Of a stretch of DNA of 64,000 bases, positions 20,600-58,253 are shown one piece after another. The stretch comes from Parasporobacterium sp. (GTDB lineage: Bacteria; Bacillota; Clostridia; Lachnospirales; Lachnospiraceae), in NCBI GenBank assembly GCA_017459985.1, contig JAFUBX010000002.1:1-64000 (forward strand), given 5' to 3'. Under the pieces are notes generated by a model. That model searched no databases and was not told the origin of the DNA. It saw only the letters and a list, made by a program, of their open reading frames with translations. The translations under genes and the position numbers were made by a program. How positions within the stretch are numbered: position 1 is the first letter of the stretch; each line of letters opens with the position of its first letter.

Positions 20600-20700
20600 A
20601 AAAGTTGTTCTTTGTGACTGACGGAAATGATTGCAGAGTACTGCAGGGGAGCAAAGAATCTCATACAGTACATTTGATATGCGGGCCGTCCGTCTGGGCA
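20600..20700 (+). ncRNA. ZTP (pfl) riboswitch
   Basis: The conserved blocks of the ZTP/ZMP riboswitch appear in order: GTGACTGACGGAAATG (20614-20629), GGGGAGCAAAGA in the second part of the first domain, and CCGTCCGTCTGGGCA at the 3' end (20686-20700). The class senses the purine intermediate ZMP/ZTP, which accumulates when 10-formyl-THF is short, and switches expression on. The position fits: it precedes an operon holding the AICAR transformylase and formate-THF ligase genes. Recognition is by eye from the conserved motifs. Confidence 0.88.
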
Positions 20701-20738
20701 CAGTTAAAGGAGTCCTTTTAACTGCGCTTATTTTTATT
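20701..20738 (+). terminator. Riboswitch-controlled terminator before purE
   Basis: An approximately 10-bp hairpin (20701-20710 with 20714-20724) directly follows the CTGGGCA block of the riboswitch. A U-rich tract follows, then AGGAG at 20741-20745. Ligand binding to the aptamer would compete with this terminator, giving an ON switch. Confidence 0.75.
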
Positions 20739-43154: not shown

Positions 43155-46100
43155 TCAGCCGGTTCCTGATTCTCCGATGAACTCCCGGAAGGCATCGATC
43201 TTCGCGGTCTCCGGATCCGCACCCTTCTCTTCGCTTTTTGCAATCAGATGCAGGATCTCCTTATAATCCCTCGGAATGATTTTTTTGAAATGGGGGATCC
43301 AGCCATCAAAATCCTTCAGGATCTTTTTGGCCTTTTCCGATCCGGTATACCGGACATGATCGCTGAGGATCCTTTGCAGCTCCTCCCGGTCCCGTTTCAG
43401 TTCCAATGGTTCCATGGAAACCATCTGCTTATTCAGGTTTTTGTACAGCCGGTTCTCCTCATCCAGCACATAGGCGACGCCTCCGCTCATGCCGGCCGCA
43501 AAGTTCTTTCCTGTGGGGCCCAGAATCACGGCGCAGCCGCCGGTCATATACTCGCAGCCGTGTTCGCCTACGCCCTCCGCCACGGCGATGGCTCCGGAAT
43601 TACGGATGCAGAACCGCTCTCCCGCCATGCCGGCAATATAGGCCTGTCCGGAGGTTGCTCCGTAAAGGGCCACGTTTCCGATGATGATATTATCTCCGGG
43701 ATCATACCGGGCTTCTCCGGGTGCCTGCACCACCAGTTTGCCTCCGGACAGTCCCTTTCCGAAATAGTCATTGCTGTCTCCGATGAGATGCAGCGTCAGT
43801 CCTGCGGGGATAAAGGCGCCGAAGCTCTGTCCCCCGGCTCCCCGGCATTCAACAGTGATGGTATCCTCCGGCAGGCCCTCCGGATGCAGGGTTGTGATCT
43901 CGGATCCGAGGATCGTTCCGAAGGTCCGGTCTGTATTCTTCAGATGCACTTCGATCCGGGATGGTTCCCCGGTTTCCAGGGAACGGCGGATGTCCGGAGA
44001 AGTGAGCAGAAGGCTTTCGTCCTTCGTCTCGTTCAGTCTGAAATCATACAGACAGGATTCCCGGAAGGAGACCTGCTCCCTGGGTACTTCGGACAGATCC
44101 AGCAGGATCTCGGACAGATCCAGCTTCTTCTGCTTGCCGGACAGTTGTTCTCTGACTCTGAGAAGGTCAGTTCTTCCCACCAGGTCGGTGACGGAGGAAA
44201 TTCCCAGAGAGGCCATGATCATCCGGAGCTGCCTTGCGATAAAGAGCATGAAATGTTCCACATATTCCGGTTTTCCCGTAAACCGTTTCCGCAGCTCCGG
44301 ATTCTGGGTGGCAATTCCCATCGGGCAGGTGTCTGACTGGCAGGCCCGCATCATCACGCATCCTAGGGTGATCAGCGGGGCGGTTGCAAATCCGAATTCC
44401 TCGGCTCCCAGAATTGCCGCGATCGCCACATCCCGCCCGGTCATCAGTTTGCCGTCGGTTTCGATCACCACCTGGCTGCGCAGTCCGTTGGCGATCAGGG
44501 TCTGATGGGTCTCGGCGAGTCCCAGTTCCCAGGGAAGGCCCGCATTATGGATGGAGGACAGCGGAGCGGCTCCGGTGCCGCCGTCATATCCGGAGATCAG
44601 GATAACCTGGGCGCCGGCTTTCGCAACCCCGGCTGCCACGGTACCCACCCCGGCCTCCGAAACCAGCTTGACCGAGATCCTGGCCTTTCTGTTGGCATTT
44701 TTCAGGTCATAGATCAGCTGGGCAAGATCTTCGATGGAATAGATGTCATGGTGGGGCGGCGGGGAGATCAGGCTGACCCCCGGAGTGGAATGCCTGGTCC
44801 TGGCGATCCAGGGATAGACTTTCCGTCCGGGCAGATGGCCTCCTTCCCCGGGCTTGGCTCCCTGCGCCATTTTGATCTGGATCTCCCTGGCGCTGTTCAG
44901 ATACCGGCTGGTCACTCCGAAGCGGCCGCTGGCCACCTGTTTGATTGCGGAGCTCCGGTCATTGTCAGTTCCAGCGGACAGGATCCGCTCTTCGCTTTCT
45001 CCTCCTTCTCCGCTGTTGGATTTGCCCTGCAGATGGTTCATGGCAATGGCCAGGGTCTGATGGGCTTCTTCCGAAATCGAACCATAGGACATGGCTCCGG
45101 TCTTGAATCGTTTTACGATGGATTCTTCGCTTTCCACTTCGGATAAAGGAATTCCCTGTTCCGGATAATTGAAATCCATCAGATTCCTCAGATACCCGGT
45201 CTGTTCCTCATCCGCCATCCGGGTATATTCCAGAAACAGGTCAAAATCCGCTTCCCGGACGGCTTTCTGAAGCATATGGATCGTCTGGGGACGGTATCTG
45301 TGATGCTCTCCCTGGCTTCGTTCCTTGTGCCGGCCCTGGGCGGTCAGTTCCAGATCCGCAAAAAGCCCCAGGGGATCAAAGGCCCGGCTGTGCTGCTGAT
45401 CCACGGATTTTTCGATATCATCCAGGGTGATTCCGCCCACCCGGCTTACGGTTCCCGTAAAGTATTCATCGATCACTTCTCCGGAAATTCCGATCGCCTC
45501 AAAGATCTTGCTTCCCTGATAGGACTGGATGGCAGAAATACCCATTTTGGACGCGATCTTCACAATCCCGAATAAAATGGCATTGTCATAATCCTTGACC
45601 GCAGCATAGTAGTCTTTATCCAGGAGTTCCTCTTCGATCAGCTCCGCGATCGTGGCGTGGGCCAGATAGGGATTGACGGCACTGGCACCGTATCCCAGAA
45701 GGGTTGCAAAATGGTGAACCTCTCTGGGTTCGCCGGATTCCAGGATCACGGACATGGCGGTACATTTTCTGGTATCCACCAGATGCTTATGCACCGCCGC
45801 CACTGCCAGCAGAGAAGGAATTGCGACGTGATTTTCATCCACGCCCCGGTCGGAAAGGATCACGATATTCGCGCCTTCTTTGTAGGCCTTGTCCACCTGC
45901 ACAAACAGGGATTTCAGGGCCCGTTTCATCGGAGTGCTCTTATAATAGAGGATCGAGACTTTTTCCACTTTGAAGCCTTCCTGCTTCATCGTCTCGATCT
46001 TCAGCAGATCCAGATCGGCCAGGATCGGATTCCGGATCTTCAGCACATGACAGTTTTCCGGCCGCTCCTCCAGCAGATTGCCGTTCTTCCCCACATAGAC

Positions 46101-47720
46101 GGTCCGGGATGTCACGATCTCCTCCCGCTGGGCGTCAATGGGCGGATTGGTCACCTGGGCAAACAGCTGTTTAAAATAATAGAATAAGGGCTGGTACTGA
46201 TCAGACAGCGCGGCGATCGGTGTATCCACGCCCATGGAGCCGATGGATTCTGTTCCGCTCAGTGCCATTTGCAGGATCCCGTCCCGGTAATTTTCCCAGG
46301 TGTATCCAAAGGCTTTCTGGAGCTGTTTTCTGTGGATTCCGCTTATCTGCGGGATCTTCCGGTTGGGGATCTTCAGGTCTGAAAGGGACACCAGATTGCT
46401 GTCCAGCCATTCCCCGAAGGGTTTGGAGCCGGCATACTGCTCCTTGATCTCCTCATCGTACAGGATCCGTTTCTGCCTGGTATCCGCAAGCAGCAGTTTT
46501 CCGGGGTGCAGACGTTCCTTTTTCACGATATGGGTTTCATCCAGTTCCAGCACCCCGACTTCCGATGACAGGATCAGCCGTCCATCGTCCATGACATAGT
46601 ATCTGGAGGGCCGCAGACCGTTACGGTCCAGTATCGCTCCCATCACGTCTCCGTCAGAGAACAATATGGAGGCAGGCCCGTCCCAGGGCTCCATCATTGT
46701 GGCATAATACTGATAAAAATCCCGTTCTTCCTGGGTCAGTGTTTCATTATGCTCCCAGGGTTCCGGAATGGAGATCATGGCTGCGAGCGGAAGGTCCATT
46801 CCGCTCATCACCAGGAATTCCAGAGTATTATCCAGCATCGCGGAATCCGAGCCGCTCTGGGAGATCACAGGAAGCACTTTGGTCATATCTTCTTCCGTGA
46901 ACTGCCCTGTATGCATGGTTTCCTCCCGGGCAAGCATTTTGTCCGCATTGCCCCGGATCGTATTGATCTCCCCGTTATGCACAATAAACCGGTTGGGGTG
47001 AGCTCTGTTCCAGCTCGGCGCTGTATTGGTGGAAAACCGGGAGTGAACCATGGCGATGGCAGATTCATAATCCGGATCCATCAGATCCGTAAAGAAGGTC
47101 CGGAGCTGTCCCACCAGGAACATGCCTTTATAAACAATGGTCCGGCAGGACAGGGAGGGGATATAGGTATTCACATTGCTCTGTTCAAATTCCCGCCGGA
47201 TGATATAGAGCATCCGGTCGAAGGCAAGGTCGTCCTTTACCTGAGGCGGACGCTCAATAAACACCTGACAGATATTCGGCATGCATTCCCGCGCTCTCGG
47301 TCCGAGTACCTCCGGGTCCGACTCCACTGGCCTCCATGCCAGAAGATTAAGGCCGGACTTGCGGACAATCACGGTGAACAGGGATTTTGCCTGCCGCATG
47401 GCAAGATCATCCCGGGGAAAGAAGAACATGCCGACCCCGTACTGTCTCTGCCCCGGCAGCGTCACTCCTGCTTCCCTGAGCTTTTTCACAAAGAAGCGAT
47501 GCGGGATCTGGGTCAGGATCCCGACCCCGTCTCCGGTCTTTCCTTCCGCATCTTTTCCGGCTCTGTGATCCAGATTTTCCACAATGGAAAGGGCGTCGCA
47601 CACCAGCTGGTGGCTGGCCCGCCCTTCGATGTCAATAATGGCCCCGATCCCGCAGTTGTCATGTTCAAATGCGGGATCATAAAGCCCCTGCCTGAGTATC
47701 CTGTTCGCCTGATCTGTCAT
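43155..47720 (-). CDS. gltB: Glutamate synthase large subunit GltB
   Basis: It converts glutamine and 2-oxoglutarate to two glutamates. I prefer the start at 47720 (MTDQANRIL) because GGCGGAGG lies eight bases upstream; the longer form from 47801 has AAAAGGA touching its ATG and overlaps the attenuator region. The product has 1521 residues. A short propeptide precedes Cys23, the glutaminase nucleophile (DNCGIGA). The FMN domain (GEGGHLPGRKV, SGYDGGTGAAPLSS), the [3Fe-4S] cysteines (ACQSDTCPMGI) and the C-terminal beta-helix (GGFAYV-like GGVAYVLD) are present. It heads the seven-gene operon. Confidence 0.95.
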   Translation of the reverse strand: MTDQANRILRQGLYDPAFEHDNCGIGAIIDIEGRASHQLVCDALSIVENLDHRAGKDAEGKTGDGVGILTQIPHRFFVKKLREAGVTLPGQRQYGVGMFFFPRDDLAMRQAKSLFTVIVRKSGLNLLAWRPVESDPEVLGPRARECMPNICQVFIERPPQVKDDLAFDRMLYIIRREFEQSNVNTYIPSLSCRTIVYKGMFLVGQLRTFFTDLMDPDYESAIAMVHSRFSTNTAPSWNRAHPNRFIVHNGEINTIRGNADKMLAREETMHTGQFTEEDMTKVLPVISQSGSDSAMLDNTLEFLVMSGMDLPLAAMISIPEPWEHNETLTQEERDFYQYYATMMEPWDGPASILFSDGDVMGAILDRNGLRPSRYYVMDDGRLILSSEVGVLELDETHIVKKERLHPGKLLLADTRQKRILYDEEIKEQYAGSKPFGEWLDSNLVSLSDLKIPNRKIPQISGIHRKQLQKAFGYTWENYRDGILQMALSGTESIGSMGVDTPIAALSDQYQPLFYYFKQLFAQVTNPPIDAQREEIVTSRTVYVGKNGNLLEERPENCHVLKIRNPILADLDLLKIETMKQEGFKVEKVSILYYKSTPMKRALKSLFVQVDKAYKEGANIVILSDRGVDENHVAIPSLLAVAAVHKHLVDTRKCTAMSVILESGEPREVHHFATLLGYGASAVNPYLAHATIAELIEEELLDKDYYAAVKDYDNAILFGIVKIASKMGISAIQSYQGSKIFEAIGISGEVIDEYFTGTVSRVGGITLDDIEKSVDQQHSRAFDPLGLFADLELTAQGRHKERSQGEHHRYRPQTIHMLQKAVREADFDLFLEYTRMADEEQTGYLRNLMDFNYPEQGIPLSEVESEESIVKRFKTGAMSYGSISEEAHQTLAIAMNHLQGKSNSGEGGESEERILSAGTDNDRSSAIKQVASGRFGVTSRYLNSAREIQIKMAQGAKPGEGGHLPGRKVYPWIARTRHSTPGVSLISPPPHHDIYSIEDLAQLIYDLKNANRKARISVKLVSEAGVGTVAAGVAKAGAQVILISGYDGGTGAAPLSSIHNAGLPWELGLAETHQTLIANGLRSQVVIETDGKLMTGRDVAIAAILGAEEFGFATAPLITLGCVMMRACQSDTCPMGIATQNPELRKRFTGKPEYVEHFMLFIARQLRMIMASLGISSVTDLVGRTDLLRVREQLSGKQKKLDLSEILLDLSEVPREQVSFRESCLYDFRLNETKDESLLLTSPDIRRSLETGEPSRIEVHLKNTDRTFGTILGSEITTLHPEGLPEDTITVECRGAGGQSFGAFIPAGLTLHLIGDSNDYFGKGLSGGKLVVQAPGEARYDPGDNIIIGNVALYGATSGQAYIAGMAGERFCIRNSGAIAVAEGVGEHGCEYMTGGCAVILGPTGKNFAAGMSGGVAYVLDEENRLYKNLNKQMVSMEPLELKRDREELQRILSDHVRYTGSEKAKKILKDFDGWIPHFKKIIPRDYKEILHLIAKSEEKGADPETAKIDAFREFIGESGTG

Positions 47721-47810
47721 TGGTTGTGCCTCCGCCTGGTATCGCTGCGCGCTGCGCTGTTGTTCCTGTGCCATCATCTGCTTCTGTCGATGCGCGGCCA
47801 TTCCTTTTAT

Positions 47811-47889: not shown

Positions 47890-47919
47890 ATCTTTGATGT
47901 CGCCTTTGACAATACAAGG

Positions 47920-47948
47920 ACTTTACTTCTACTTCCGCAAATTGTCAA
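47920..47948 (-). promoter_or_regulatory. gltB operon promoter
   Basis: A perfect TTGACA (47943-47948) is followed after 17 bases by TAAAGT (47920-47925) on the minus strand. It lies between the 52-bp repeat array and the leader hairpins. Confidence 0.7.
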
Positions 47949-48043
47949 GGATTTTATCATTTCTCTTCTGAGTCCCTGCATTATTCGAGGATTTCATTTT
48001 CCGCTTTGTTTTTCAGTTTTATATATCGATATTGAGACCTGTG

Positions 48044-48338
48044 TCATGTAAATAACGCCCTCCTGGAATTTTACATGATCATATTCTTGTTATCATAATG
48101 TAAAATCAGTCAACTCCATTATGTACATGATAAAAAAGACACTTTCGTCATGTAATAATGAAGCTTGTGACAATATACATGATGAAAAAGACAGTTTCGT
48201 CATGTAAAAAACAGAAGTATTGGAATTTACATGATGAATAGGGCTAAATCATCATGTAAAAAAGAAGAGTATGTAAATATACATGAGCATGCATCCAAAA
48301 ATATCATGTAAAAACTGACTACCCTGAAATTTACATAA
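48044..48338. repeat. 52-bp periodic array of alternating TCATGTAA / TTACATGA half-sites
   Basis: Six copies of TCATGTAA start at 48044, 48096, 48148, 48200, 48252 and 48304 (the second reads TAATGTAA). Six reverse-complement copies (TTACATGA, or with G/A at the first base; the last TTACATAA) start at 48071, 48123, 48175, 48227, 48279 and 48331. Each series has a spacing of exactly 52 bases. The two alternate 27 and 25 bases apart. The DNA between is largely variable, except that units two and three also share about 24 bases. It lies in the gap between amt and gltB, 95 bases upstream of the gltB promoter. It is not a normal CRISPR. Possible roles are a cooperative operator array or a nucleoprotein/centromere-like site. 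Confidence 0.95.
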
Positions 48339-48344
48339 TACACA

Positions 48345-48377
48345 GGGCGGGATTCAGACAATCTCGTTCTCCCGCCC
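48345..48377 (-). terminator. Possible weak terminator after amt-PII
   Basis: An 8-bp GC-rich stem (48345-48352 with 48370-48377) with a 17-base loop lies about 60 bases after the amt stop. It is not followed by a proper T-run on either strand, so the function is uncertain. Confidence 0.4.
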
Positions 48378-48438
48378 ATTCTTCTGCCCTTTTTCCGCTC
48401 ACTTTCCCACAGGCAGGGGATCGGAAGGCTTCCGCTTA

Positions 48439-50223
48439 CTATTCCACATCCTGCAGGGCAGCGAAGTTCTCTTCGCCGGTCCGGATCTTCACAACCCGGC
48501 TTACCGGATAAACAAAGATCTTGCCATCGCCGATGTGGCCGGTGTACAGGGCTTTCTTCGCGGCCTCGATCACATCGTCCACCGGGATGGCGCTGACAAC
48601 GACTTCCAGTTTGACTTTGGGAAGCAGCGTTGCATCAATCTCAACGCCGCGGTACCGTTCTCCGGCACCTTTTTCAATGCCGCAGCCCATTACCTGGGTG
48701 ACTGTCATTCCGGTCACGCCAAGCTCGTTCATGGCCCGCTTCAGAGCGTCATACCGGGAGAGCTTGGCAATGATTACGACCTTTGAAATGCCGGAGGCGG
48801 AAACATTTTCCAGGCTCTGCACAGAAGCTGCGAGGTCATTCCGGTATACCGGAACAGCCGCATTCCGTTTCACTTCCGACGCCTCTTCGTAAACATCCGT
48901 TCCGAGATTGGTGTTTTCATTCACAGACATCGTCATTGTATTTGAAATATCCATGATGGCAAATCCGGCATAGGCGGAAGGAAGTCCGTGTTCCTTGATA
49001 TCCAGACCCATAATCTCCTCTTCCTCGGAGACCCGGAGCCCGACCGTCTTCTTAATGATCAGGAAAGCGATCGTAATGGTTACAACCGTCCAGGCTGCAG
49101 TGATCAGCATACCGGCGCACTGTTTTCCGAGCTGCGTCAGTCCGCCTCCATAGAACAGGCCTTCCCGGATCCCTGCCACAGCAAACCCCGGGGCACTTTC
49201 CGTTGCAAATAATCCCACAGCGATGGTTCCCCAGACGCCGTTCAGCAGATGGACCGCAACCGCGCCGACCGGATCATCCACATGGGTCACATGATCATTA
49301 AACCAGATGCCGAAGACCACCAGAACGCCGGAGACCGCACCGATCAGCGCGGAACCGACACAGTCCGTTACATCGCAGGAAGCGGTGATTGCCACCAGCC
49401 CCGCCAGCGACGCGTTGAGGCACATGGACACATCCGGCTTCCCGTACCGGATCCAGGTAAACAGCATACAGACCACCGTTGCAACTGCCGGAGCGACGGT
49501 CGTCGTCAGAAACACCGAACCCATGGTGGGAACATCCGTTGCGGCAGCGCCGTTAAATCCGTACCAGCCCAGCCAGAGAATGAACACGCCCAGTGCCGCG
49601 ATAACCAGGTTGTGTCCCGGAAATGCGTTGACCTTGGTGACTTTGCCCCGGCTGTCTCTGTCAAATTTGCCGATCCTCGGTCCCAGCATCCATGCGCCGA
49701 TCAGTGCACAGATGCCGCCCACCATATGGATGCAGTTGGATCCGGCATAATCATGAAATCCCCACTGCGCGAGAAAACCGCCGCCCCAGGTCCAGTGAGC
49801 CTCAATGGGATAAATGATCGCAGAGATCACCGCCGAGTAAATGCAGTAACTGGAAAATTTGGTCCGCTCCGCCATAGACCCGGAAACGATCGTGGCTGTG
49901 GTGGCACAGAATACCAGGTTAAAGACAAAAGCGGAGTAGTTAAAGTTTCCGTAGTTTGAAAACACATCAAAACTGAACCCTCCCGCAAATCCATGCAGCA
50001 CATTTTCTCCGAGCATCAACGATGCGCCGCAGAGAAACCACATCACGGTTCCGATACAAAAATCCATCAGGTTTTTCATAATGATGTTTCCGGCATTTTT
50101 CGCTCTGGTAAATCCAGCCTCGCACATGGCAAAGCCTGCCTGCATCCAGAAGACAAAGGCAGCTCCGATCAGGAACCACACCGAGAATATTTCCCCATGC
50201 AGCACGTTCATAATTTCTTCCAT
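48439..50223 (-). CDS. amt: Ammonium transporter fused to a PII signalling domain
   Basis: This Amt/Rh channel for ammonium carries its own regulator. The protein has 594 residues and AGGAGG stands nine bases before the ATG. Residues 1 to about 410 form the multi-span Amt part (VFWMQAGFAMCEAGFTRAKN, GGSMAERT-like SGSMAERTKF, GTDVPTMG region). A linker follows, then residues 479-594 are a PII domain with GCGIEKGAGERYRG, LLPKVKLEVVV and GDGKIFVYPVSRVVKIRTGE. The T-loop position equal to Tyr51 is Ile (RGVEID), so uridylylation is unlikely; ADP/ATP and 2-oxoglutarate binding remain possible. It follows glnN behind the hairpin at 50327-50365. Confidence 0.93.
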   Translation of the reverse strand: MEEIMNVLHGEIFSVWFLIGAAFVFWMQAGFAMCEAGFTRAKNAGNIIMKNLMDFCIGTVMWFLCGASLMLGENVLHGFAGGFSFDVFSNYGNFNYSAFVFNLVFCATTATIVSGSMAERTKFSSYCIYSAVISAIIYPIEAHWTWGGGFLAQWGFHDYAGSNCIHMVGGICALIGAWMLGPRIGKFDRDSRGKVTKVNAFPGHNLVIAALGVFILWLGWYGFNGAAATDVPTMGSVFLTTTVAPAVATVVCMLFTWIRYGKPDVSMCLNASLAGLVAITASCDVTDCVGSALIGAVSGVLVVFGIWFNDHVTHVDDPVGAVAVHLLNGVWGTIAVGLFATESAPGFAVAGIREGLFYGGGLTQLGKQCAGMLITAAWTVVTITIAFLIIKKTVGLRVSEEEEIMGLDIKEHGLPSAYAGFAIMDISNTMTMSVNENTNLGTDVYEEASEVKRNAAVPVYRNDLAASVQSLENVSASGISKVVIIAKLSRYDALKRAMNELGVTGMTVTQVMGCGIEKGAGERYRGVEIDATLLPKVKLEVVVSAIPVDDVIEAAKKALYTGHIGDGKIFVYPVSRVVKIRTGEENFAALQDVE

Positions 50224-57612: not shown

Positions 57613-58060
57613 TCAGTTTTCCTGCAGCTGTTCATAATATTGCTGCAGCAAAGGCCTTGCTTTATCATATACGTTTTTCAGCCCGGGGTCAAACTGACTT
57701 CCCATACCTTCCAGAATGATCCGGTTCGCCGGATATCCCGAGCCGCATGCTGCTTCATTTTCGCAAATTCCTCATCCGTGAATTTCCCGGACTTGCGGAG
57801 CACCACATCATCCACCGCGATTTTTCCCAAATCGTGCATCGGCGCCGCCTTGATCACATCCCGGCACAGCTGTTCGGACAGCTCAAGCTTTCCCCGCCGA
57901 TGTAAGTGATCTGTGTCGCTGTAACCGCGCTTTCCAGATTTGGCGCCGTGGAATACAGCAGATATCCCAGGCAGGCGATCGGTACCAGGGTGAAGATCAG
58001 TGAGCTGCAATAGTAGCTATCGCCGGCCGCAAAGACCGCAATGCTCGCACTTTTTGACAA
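57613..58060 (-). pseudogene. Remnant of a 7TM-HD-GYP signalling protein
   Basis: Three pieces of one minus-strand gene remain in different frames. Around 57900-58020 is a membrane segment (LIFTLVPIACLGYLLYSTAP, then ATQITYIGG). It then joins an HD core (KAAPMHDLGKIAVDDVVL, RKSGKFTDEEFAKMKQHA), and finally a domain end (GMGSQFDPGLKNVYDKARPL, then QQYYEQL) down to the stop at 57613. The GYP half and the region between membrane and HD parts are missing, so two internal deletions and frameshifts are likely. The upstream end is fused to the palindromic repeat element at 58035. Confidence 0.75.
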
Positions 58061-58253
58061 GTCCTGCCGAAAATCTCACGCAATGCTGCATTTTTTCGGC
58101 AAAGAGGCTCTCAGAGAACTGTTTCTGCCAAAAAACTCACGCAATGCTGCATTTTTTCGGCAAAATCCGGCTCTGCAAGAGGTGTCTGCCGAAAATCTCA
58201 CGCATTGCTGCATTTTTTCGGCAGCCTCTGTCAAAAAGTGCGAGCATTGCGGT
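58035..58253. repeat. Symmetrical 219-bp palindromic element with three 61-bp-spaced repeats
   Basis: Perfect 25-bp terminal inverted repeats (58035-58059 and 58229-58253) flank three copies of a 37-base unit (58065-58101, 58126-58162, 58187-58223). The copies are exactly 61 bases apart, with 24-base variable segments between. Five bases separate each outer arm from the nearest copy. Each 37-base unit is itself palindromic (TGCCGAAAA ... TTTTCGGCA). No transposase is nearby and no clear target duplication is seen. It resembles a MITE- or REP-like non-autonomous element and would fold strongly as single-stranded DNA or RNA. Confidence 0.92.

Follow-up and report, generated by a model that had tools for sequence, protein, structure and literature searches.

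A helically phased array of inverted half-sites in Parasporobacterium sp. as a probable dispersed copy of a repeat matched to a small PD-(D/E)XK-like protein

Short palindromic extragenic repeats of the REP, BIME and REPIN kinds are scattered and are described as matched to a partner gene, RAYT (TnpA-REP), which adjoins such repeats; repeats and protein change together and the repeats act as larger composite units (PMC2817692, PMC3116915). Tandem repeats also stand before toxin genes in type III toxin-antitoxin loci, for which a short terminator between the repeats and the toxin gene is a described criterion (PMC8860590).

The window analyzed here, the whole stretch of 64,000 nucleotides at positions 1 to 64,000 of contig JAFUBX010000002.1 (Parasporobacterium sp., Lachnospiraceae; assembly GCA_017459985.1), contains an array that a first-pass annotation had described as strictly 52-bp periodic and located upstream of gltB. 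The array is real, and both of its octamer series are spaced exactly 52 bp apart, with forward octamers starting at 48044, 48096, 48148, 48200, 48252, and 48304, and reverse octamers starting at 48071, 48123, 48175, 48227, 48279, and 48331. Their orientation alternates as had been reported, with actual steps of 27 and 25 bp in place of the "about every 26 bases" given at the time. Seven of the twelve half-sites are exact copies of TCATGTAA or TTACATGA and five are one base off (TAATGTAA, GTACATGA, ATACATGA twice, and TTACATAA); the gaps between half-sites, 19 and 17 bp, are both variable in sequence. The earlier remark that two adjacent units are alike was borne out (76% identity over 62 bp). 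The parts of the element are as follows.

47967..48043, unstranded: leader of the dispersed element, partly common to the copies on contigs C127, C96, and C121 (from the alignment of copies)
48044..48338, unstranded: TA-class array of six units TCATGTAA-N19-WTACATGA, period 52 bp, 12 half-sites (read from the sequence)
48044..48078, unstranded: array unit 1, a 35-bp inverted pair
48096..48130, unstranded: array unit 2, half-sites TAATGTAA / GTACATGA
48148..48182, unstranded: array unit 3
48200..48234, unstranded: array unit 4
48252..48286, unstranded: array unit 5
48304..48338, unstranded: array unit 6, final half-site TTACATAA

The array itself stands as first described, while the element is somewhat longer than had been thought, since a copy on another contig (L027/L028; genomes, contigs, and loci carry G, C, and L numbers) aligns with window positions 47967 to 48286 at 81% identity. 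In the copies on C127 and C121 the leader contains a unit of a sister class, CG, which is decayed in the window copy.

The pattern is abundant in the genome from which the window comes (G000; 3.53 Mb in 131 contigs). The pair TCATGTAA-N19-TTACATGA, allowing up to 3 mismatches, was found there 80 times compared with 5 times for the reversed control, and the core TCATG-N25-CATGA 122 times compared with once, so that the window array is far beyond chance. The same core occurred 58 times in G004 (control: 1), 36 times in G002 (control: 1), and 0–5 times in the other 11 genus genomes (controls: 0–2). Own-genome arrays of the TA class number at least 14, namely a fragment of 1.5 units and 13 arrays of 6 to 7.5 units. 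The CG class reads TCATGCG where the TA class has TCATGTA, and arrays of both classes occur on common contigs of the own genome (C12, C34, C97), indicating that they do not stem from two mixed organisms. Arrays of G002 and G004 mostly have five units. A search with a three-half-site pattern among 397 family genomes (334 genera; G004 was not in the draw) matched the own genome only. In a genome contig collection, from which own-genome records were possibly left out, the pattern matched just three records, all from a metagenome assembly of sheep jejunum, Parasporobacterium sp. RGIG5915.

According to crude ORF calls, intergenic gaps of all three kinds (tandem, convergent, and divergent) harbor arrays. 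Among 47 array or partial-array loci in three genomes, 41 overlapped no ORF of at least 80 aa except slightly at their ends, and six were overlapped by putative ORFs of about 80–155 aa. Like the repeats of REP-RAYT, the arrays are extragenic and palindromic. Seven of ten scanned neighbors had a Pfam match (LacI-type regulator, glutathione peroxidase, carboxylesterase, GTPase, phage integrase, 5'-nucleotidase C-terminal domain, and macro domain). Five own-genome copies, including that of the window, are 81–96% identical over 242 to 369 bp and lie at unrelated places. The copy on C121 is a composite of a CG unit, five TA units, a spacer of ~39 bp, and a further CG unit; in the other four copies at least one end unit has decayed or is absent, and in the window copy this holds for both. 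Since arrays were observed at or near contig ends in G002 (C44, C64, C111, C191), G000 (C24, C97 at its far end, C121), and G009 (C119, C120), their number may be underestimated in draft assemblies.

No DNA match to the window element was found in 72,556 plasmid and 50,697 phage records, and a phage or plasmid origin of the element was rejected on the strength of these collections. Viral contigs gave no match for one array pattern and no confirmed relative of the partner protein described below in two scans; three short faecal "phage" records showed a weak match to that protein, and plasmid matches covered at most 60% of its length. Neither target-site duplications nor empty sites were found for the arrays. 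Two other repeat structures were observed. Around a two-unit CG array, loci L066 and L070 (G000 C12 and C37) share five proteins at 99–100% identity, reflecting either a duplication or an assembly artefact. At 58033–58250 of the window, three copies of inverted half-sites TGCCGAAAA/TTTTCGGCA (one copy altered) lie 61 bp apart and are enclosed by a 23-bp inverted repeat, a structure that resembles a MITE or may represent a further array class with a period of six helical turns.

An unguided comparison of the ORFs that neighbor arrays revealed one protein family that recurs beside non-orthologous arrays, in three cases, with the array before the start of the gene. Elsewhere in the own genome, a TA array lies 25 bp before the start of such a gene (L025; contig C111, 97931–98734; L025:3129–3935). 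At L052 of G004 the distance from a TA array to the gene is 22 bp if the longest ORF is taken and 56 bp if the start with the better ribosome site is used, and at L076 of G000 two CG units lie 49 bp before a gene whose C-terminus is lost. Family members are about 265 aa long and have a PD-(D/E)XK-like C-terminus. Neither Pfam nor NCBIfam contained a convincing model for the family; at E ≤ 0.1 no Pfam family matched more than one of 22 members, none of the 13 families listed being PF01797, and no solved structure matched below E 0.1. The PDC-S68 models of PADLOC match the C-terminal part in all 22 members and the HEAT_CxxC_PDDEXK model does so in 6. Within the 22-member alignment E165, D196, and F197 are invariant and E211-H212 is present in at least 90%, a conserved acidic core in a recognizable domain of the kind that defines the PD-(D/E)XK superfamily; the members are putative nucleases.

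Relatives of the protein were detected in all 14 genus genomes at E ≤ 0.001 (57 matches) and in 64 of 200 family genomes at E ≤ 1e-10; for at least four of those 64 (G048, G101, G172, G187) the only match was the C-terminal part of a longer ORF. The C-terminal domain was also seen in open frames of about 1100–1260 aa (G048, G092, G101, G187, G203), which is the length of the PDC-S68 models. Other relatives in G002 (79% complete) and G004 (90% complete) are only 25–39% identical to the TA-class protein, and hence no close partner was found for the CG arrays of these two genomes. Our preferred reading, to which we assign a probability of roughly 0.55, is that arrays and protein form a REP/RAYT-like repeat-plus-protein system made of unrelated parts, of which the window array would be a solo dispersed copy.

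The same C-terminal match to PADLOC candidates could instead point to an immune or genome-guard nuclease that defends against foreign DNA, with the arrays serving to hold, store, or regulate the protein (self-marking or sequestration). A patchy distribution and the many half-site types would agree with such a role. However, the match is limited to a C-terminal domain shared with model proteins of ~1200 aa, and related copies at unrelated places need a spreading mechanism, which a defensive function does not give; we consider defense conceivable but unlikely.

The repeat-plus-protein reading gains from the arrays that stand before other family genes. Alternating inverted half-sites were scored by a detector up to 600 bp upstream of genes with at least 300 bp available, and scores of 10 or more were called strong. 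Strong upstream arrays were present at 41 of 106 distinct genes (42 of 107 when one gene is counted twice), compared with none of 151 control regions (maximum score 9) and none of 107 shuffles (maximum 6). The control regions came from the array loci of G000, G002, and G004 and from one G005 locus, with known arrays left out; from 250 candidate genes of at least 150 aa, 55 were dropped for insufficient flank, 11 for lying inside three protein loci, and 33 for overlap with a known array, 24 of these 33 scoring 10 or more. By the same detector 65 of the 106 genes had no strong array, 11 of them scoring 7–9 and the rest lower. With L164, a further gene that had 299 bp upstream, the distinct strong arrays number 42; they have 5 to 11 units each and end a median of 79 bp (range 23–294) before the script-chosen start codon. 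Their half-sites in other genomes include CATGGCA, CCATTCC, TGGTCATA, TTACATGG, GGGCC, GTGACC, and others; as the 41 distinct 7-mers are not in register, types were grouped by shared 5-mers, which gave at least 26 groups among the 42 arrays when any shared 5-mer was counted as the same type. Downstream, an array-like score was obtained for 4 of 55 genes, two of them with a period near 30. Before one family member (L168; G000 C91:25100–26950) two half-site types, CTATCCCTG and ATAGTCCAA, were seen by eye to alternate. Terminator-like hairpins occupy the leader in 6 of 54 low-scoring loci (0.3 expected). The members with a hairpin leader and no strong array are L183, L189, L111, L120, L192, and L220, with a promoter visible by eye in L183 and L189, and this branch looks as if attenuation had replaced the array.

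The periods of the 42 arrays fall at 41–43 bp (2 arrays), 51–54 bp (23), 61–64 bp (8), 73–75 bp (8), and 84.5 bp (1), and fit multiples of about 10.6 bp (R = 0.88), a value that neither a uniform nor a smoothed null attained in 5000 draws (highest R 0.54). This list omits L132, which is the same gene as L102, and includes L164, which has 299 bp upstream and is not among the 106; the period of L139 (32.1 by the detector) was entered by hand as 64.2, same-orientation sites there being 64 bp apart. The 19 periods outside the five-turn group gave R = 0.89 at 10.7 bp (0 of 5000). Helical phasing, which the first-pass annotation had suspected from the 52-bp spacing, is a property of the protein-linked family, and since whole helical turns are a matter of duplex DNA, the periods suggest that proteins would sit side by side on one face.

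Both the position of the arrays shortly before start codons and a phasing that suits cooperative binding would also be expected of a protein that represses its own gene from the upstream array, with solo arrays setting its free level by titration. Such autoregulation seems to us quite unlikely: no excess of promoter-like sites was seen ahead of the arrays (3 of 42, about the level of shuffled sequence, versus about 0.065 expected per locus), and autoregulation alone explains neither the dispersed related copies nor why a regulator would keep a nuclease-type domain. A TTGACA with a fitting -10 was noted by eye before the arrays of L118 and L119. Promoter placement as a clue was rejected, given that lack of enrichment.

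A REP/RAYT-like system predicts that half-site and protein go together. As a prediction of this coupling, TGGTCATA-N16-TATGACCA, found beside the G007 protein L106, was searched for in all 14 genus genomes and gave 20 matches in G007, 19 in G009, and 0–1 in the 12 others. Six of the 20 G007 matches are the gene's own array on C55; away from the gene, TGGTCATA arrays lie on C123, C127, and, as a short one, C30, and G009 has arrays or single pairs on five contigs. The G009 protein is truncated where its contig stops; along 156 aa it shows 95% identity to L106, whereas the next most similar among 25 proteins compared reaches 57%. Most arrays of this class alternate in steps of 26–27 bp, and one is at the same place in G007 and G009 with diverged filler. 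The orthologous solo arrays L229 and L234 of these two genomes end beside an apparent tRNA gene (by eye). Another pattern, GCATCA-N23-TGATGC, tried in other genera, proved too loose, with 4–25 matches in every one of 20 genomes and no excess in its source genome (16). Cognate repeats are dispersed only alongside a matching protein for the TGGTCATA class; the CG class is present in G002 and G004 with no close partner found.

The suggestion that the array encodes RNA hairpins was weakened, as base pairing around the 19-nt filler does not extend beyond the 7-nt half-site and helical phasing is a property of duplex DNA. Across the filler, positions 8–12 pair less than composition predicts (e.g., 0.24 vs. 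0.39 and 0.27 vs. 0.50), which speaks against long conserved hairpins there. Positions 6–7 pair at 0.82–0.83 against 0.50 expected, and do so equally across filler and linker, as would follow if a whole array had one class. In the linker, pairing at positions 9, 11, and 12 is somewhat above prediction. RNA folding of the window array gave z = -4.7 and -6.1 on the two strands, weak evidence given that inverted repeats fold anyway. The sole Rfam match in the window at gathering score is a ZMP/ZTP riboswitch at 20604–20706 (plus strand). A known RNA family was rejected for the array, this match lying elsewhere.

These features bear on a type III toxin-antitoxin-like arrangement, in which the array would be transcribed as a repeat RNA that restrains the nuclease. 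Tandem repeats do stand directly upstream of a nuclease-like gene, a resemblance in position only; the predicted folding, the joint change of positions 6–7 on both arms, and the slight excess of pairing in the linker would fit as well. We nevertheless regard it as improbable, because none of 41 array-bearing loci has a terminator-like hairpin separating the array from the gene, none of the 22 members has a match of ToxN, CptN, or TenpN type in Pfam or NCBIfam, positions 8–12 pair below expectation across the filler, the agreement at positions 6–7 is as expected with one class per array, the periods follow the DNA helix, and the majority of the arrays in a class are remote from the gene.

The immediate surroundings of the window array had suggested yet another role. 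They comprise:

43155..47801, minus strand: glutamate synthase large chain-like gene, which we take to be gltB (named from its sequence), a neighbor only
47920..47948, minus strand: promoter-like TTGACA-N17-TAAAGT before the gltB-like gene, apart from the array (by eye)
48346..48377, minus strand: GGCGGGA/TCCCGCC hairpin lacking a T run, located between amt-like gene and array (by eye)
48439..50223, minus strand: ammonium transporter-like gene with a PII-like C-terminus, presumably amt, likewise a neighbor only

Read along the minus strand, 100 bp separate the amt-like stop from the array and 243 bp separate the array from the gltB-like start codon (47801). The TTGACA promoter proposed earlier for gltB holds up (minus-strand TTGACA at 47948–47943, a 17-bp spacer, and TAAAGT at 47925–47920). 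It was this placement that had led the first-pass annotation to view the array as an operator platform of the nitrogen operon. The link did not survive, and the idea now appears highly improbable: at least 13 further TA-class arrays lie beside unrelated genes in tandem, convergent, and divergent gaps; the GlnR/TnrA operator motif, TGTNA-N7-TNACA, has no match in 47900–48440; and at 11 amt loci of other genus genomes the flanks covered, of at most 1.5 kb, contained no gltB. Relatives of the amt-like gene occur in 11 of the 14 genus genomes. A gltB operator was rejected because the same arrays adjoin unrelated genes elsewhere in the genome, and a GlnR-type operator because of the missing motif.

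Comparison of orthologous arrays revealed what is kept and what changes. Three G002/G004 pairs (L090/L051, L088/L100, and L084/L096) were compared unit by unit, using units 2–6 of the six-unit array in L084/L096 (the other register gives 1/50 and 54/163) and leaving out L085-L086/L098, whose array is cut by contig ends. TCATG was changed at 0/50, 0/50, and 1/50 positions per pair, compared with 56/163, 2/163, and 28/163 in filler plus linker (pooled: 1/150 vs. 86/489; Fisher P about 4e-10), in keeping with the selection on half-sites and geometry that had been postulated. In L090/L051, within a 1.9-kb stretch of array and downstream flank that is 91% identical, the two positions after TCATG differ in 20 of 20 cases, all CG in G002 and all TA in G004, while TCATG itself is unchanged (0/50) and the unit-specific filler still aligns. 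This concerted class switch, seen in one array pair, suggests a change of reader, as independent drift or homogenization of units would hardly produce it. At L052/L071, a site that adjoins the same neighbor (96% identical) in G004 and G000, G004 has a TA array together with the protein gene and G000 has two CG units.

Growth by unit duplication, as proposed earlier, is apparent in some arrays of the own genome (C34, C61a, C111a), where neighboring units are near-identical. An ordinary minisatellite without function, its half-sites kept by recent homogenization, could produce such units but is hardly credible, being contradicted by filler that diverged between orthologs while TCATG did not, by half-sites that match the protein, and by quantized periods. 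The first-pass annotation had named the occurrence of the array at random places, as a minisatellite, as grounds for abandoning its view; the array is indeed dispersed, and yet its half-site, its phase, and roughly its unit number are fixed, which sets it apart from an ordinary minisatellite.

Taken together, we favor a REP/RAYT-like system in which the window array would be a solo copy of an extragenic repeat that is dispersed through the genome and has as its partner the small two-domain protein of L025 on contig C111. The N-terminal part of this protein is undescribed, its C-terminal domain is related to PD-(D/E)XK nucleases, and different family members pair with different half-sites. The starting point, that the protein gene and its array co-occur and match, can be read directly from the sequences. 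The protein would then bind the half-sites as a phased multimer, half-sites whole helical turns apart aligning the protomers on one DNA face in a cooperative complex. Arrays and composites may next be copied into intergenic DNA, either by way of the PD-(D/E)XK-like domain or by repair and recombination; the protein would mark, cut, or copy its cognate arrays, composites with sister-class units would spread along, and half-sites would stay matched to the protein while arrays spread. The expected outcome, dispersed arrays that bear the half-site of the resident protein, is seen for the TGGTCATA class and for one switched array, and dispersed arrays could further change class in concert. The model is weakest at the CG arrays of G002 and G004, for which a partner was not found, and in that no empty sites were found.

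At about even odds, we would extend this to a widespread, undescribed class of small DNA-recognizing nuclease-like proteins in Lachnospiraceae, each with its own phased half-site array, whose specificity changes often and is followed in concert by the dispersed arrays, a REP-RAYT-like parasite or tenant of independent origin. If true, the REP-RAYT way of life would have been invented twice independently, here with a geometry strict enough for the helical repeat of DNA to be read from array periods. Dozens of natural protein/half-site pairs would become available for learning how a small DNA-binding protein shifts its specificity, together with an example from two sister species in which ten sites are re-targeted in concert. 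The system would also give a first entry to a large protein family that has no name, with matches in 64 of the 200 family genomes sampled.

Among described systems REP-RAYT is the nearest working analogue. The arrays resemble it in being scattered palindromic extragenic repeats that are matched to a protein, change together with it, and form composites. Unlike RAYT, the partner is a PD-(D/E)XK-like protein and not a Y1/HUH transposase (PF01797 was not matched), and arrays stand mostly on the upstream side (41/106 upstream, 4/55 downstream) rather than flanking the gene on both sides; for these two reasons the system is not a member of REP-RAYT. Its half-sites of roughly 7–9 bp, in arrays of 5–11 units phased by helical turns with variable filler, differ from REP sequences as well. 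With type III toxin-antitoxin loci such as ToxIN and CptIN it shares a tandem array directly before a nuclease-like gene and the joint divergence of array and protein, but no terminator was found after the array, the arrays are dispersed, and they are helically phased. The ends of Tn7-like elements carry several protein sites and are served by TnsA, a PD-(D/E)XK protein, and TnsB. The likeness lies in a PD-(D/E)XK protein linked to multiple sites; in contrast to Tn7, the arrays stand alone and have a single recurring gene beside them, with no DDE transposase seen among the recurrent neighbors. PADLOC candidate PDC-S68 has a homologous C-terminal domain, but its models are ~1200 aa long and the array-linked proteins, at about 265 aa, match only the end of the model. 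Iteron and centromere arrays of plasmids are phased multi-site arrays for cooperative binding, whereas the present arrays occur in many chromosomal copies per genome and the window element has no plasmid or phage DNA match. In the open-licence part of PubMed Central no description of such a repeat-plus-protein system was found, and one may exist elsewhere. CRISPR arrays consist of identical repeats with unique spacers and are accompanied by cas genes, whereas here only short half-sites are kept and both gaps vary. As each of the known kinds compared differs from it in defining features, we regard the array/protein system as categorically new.
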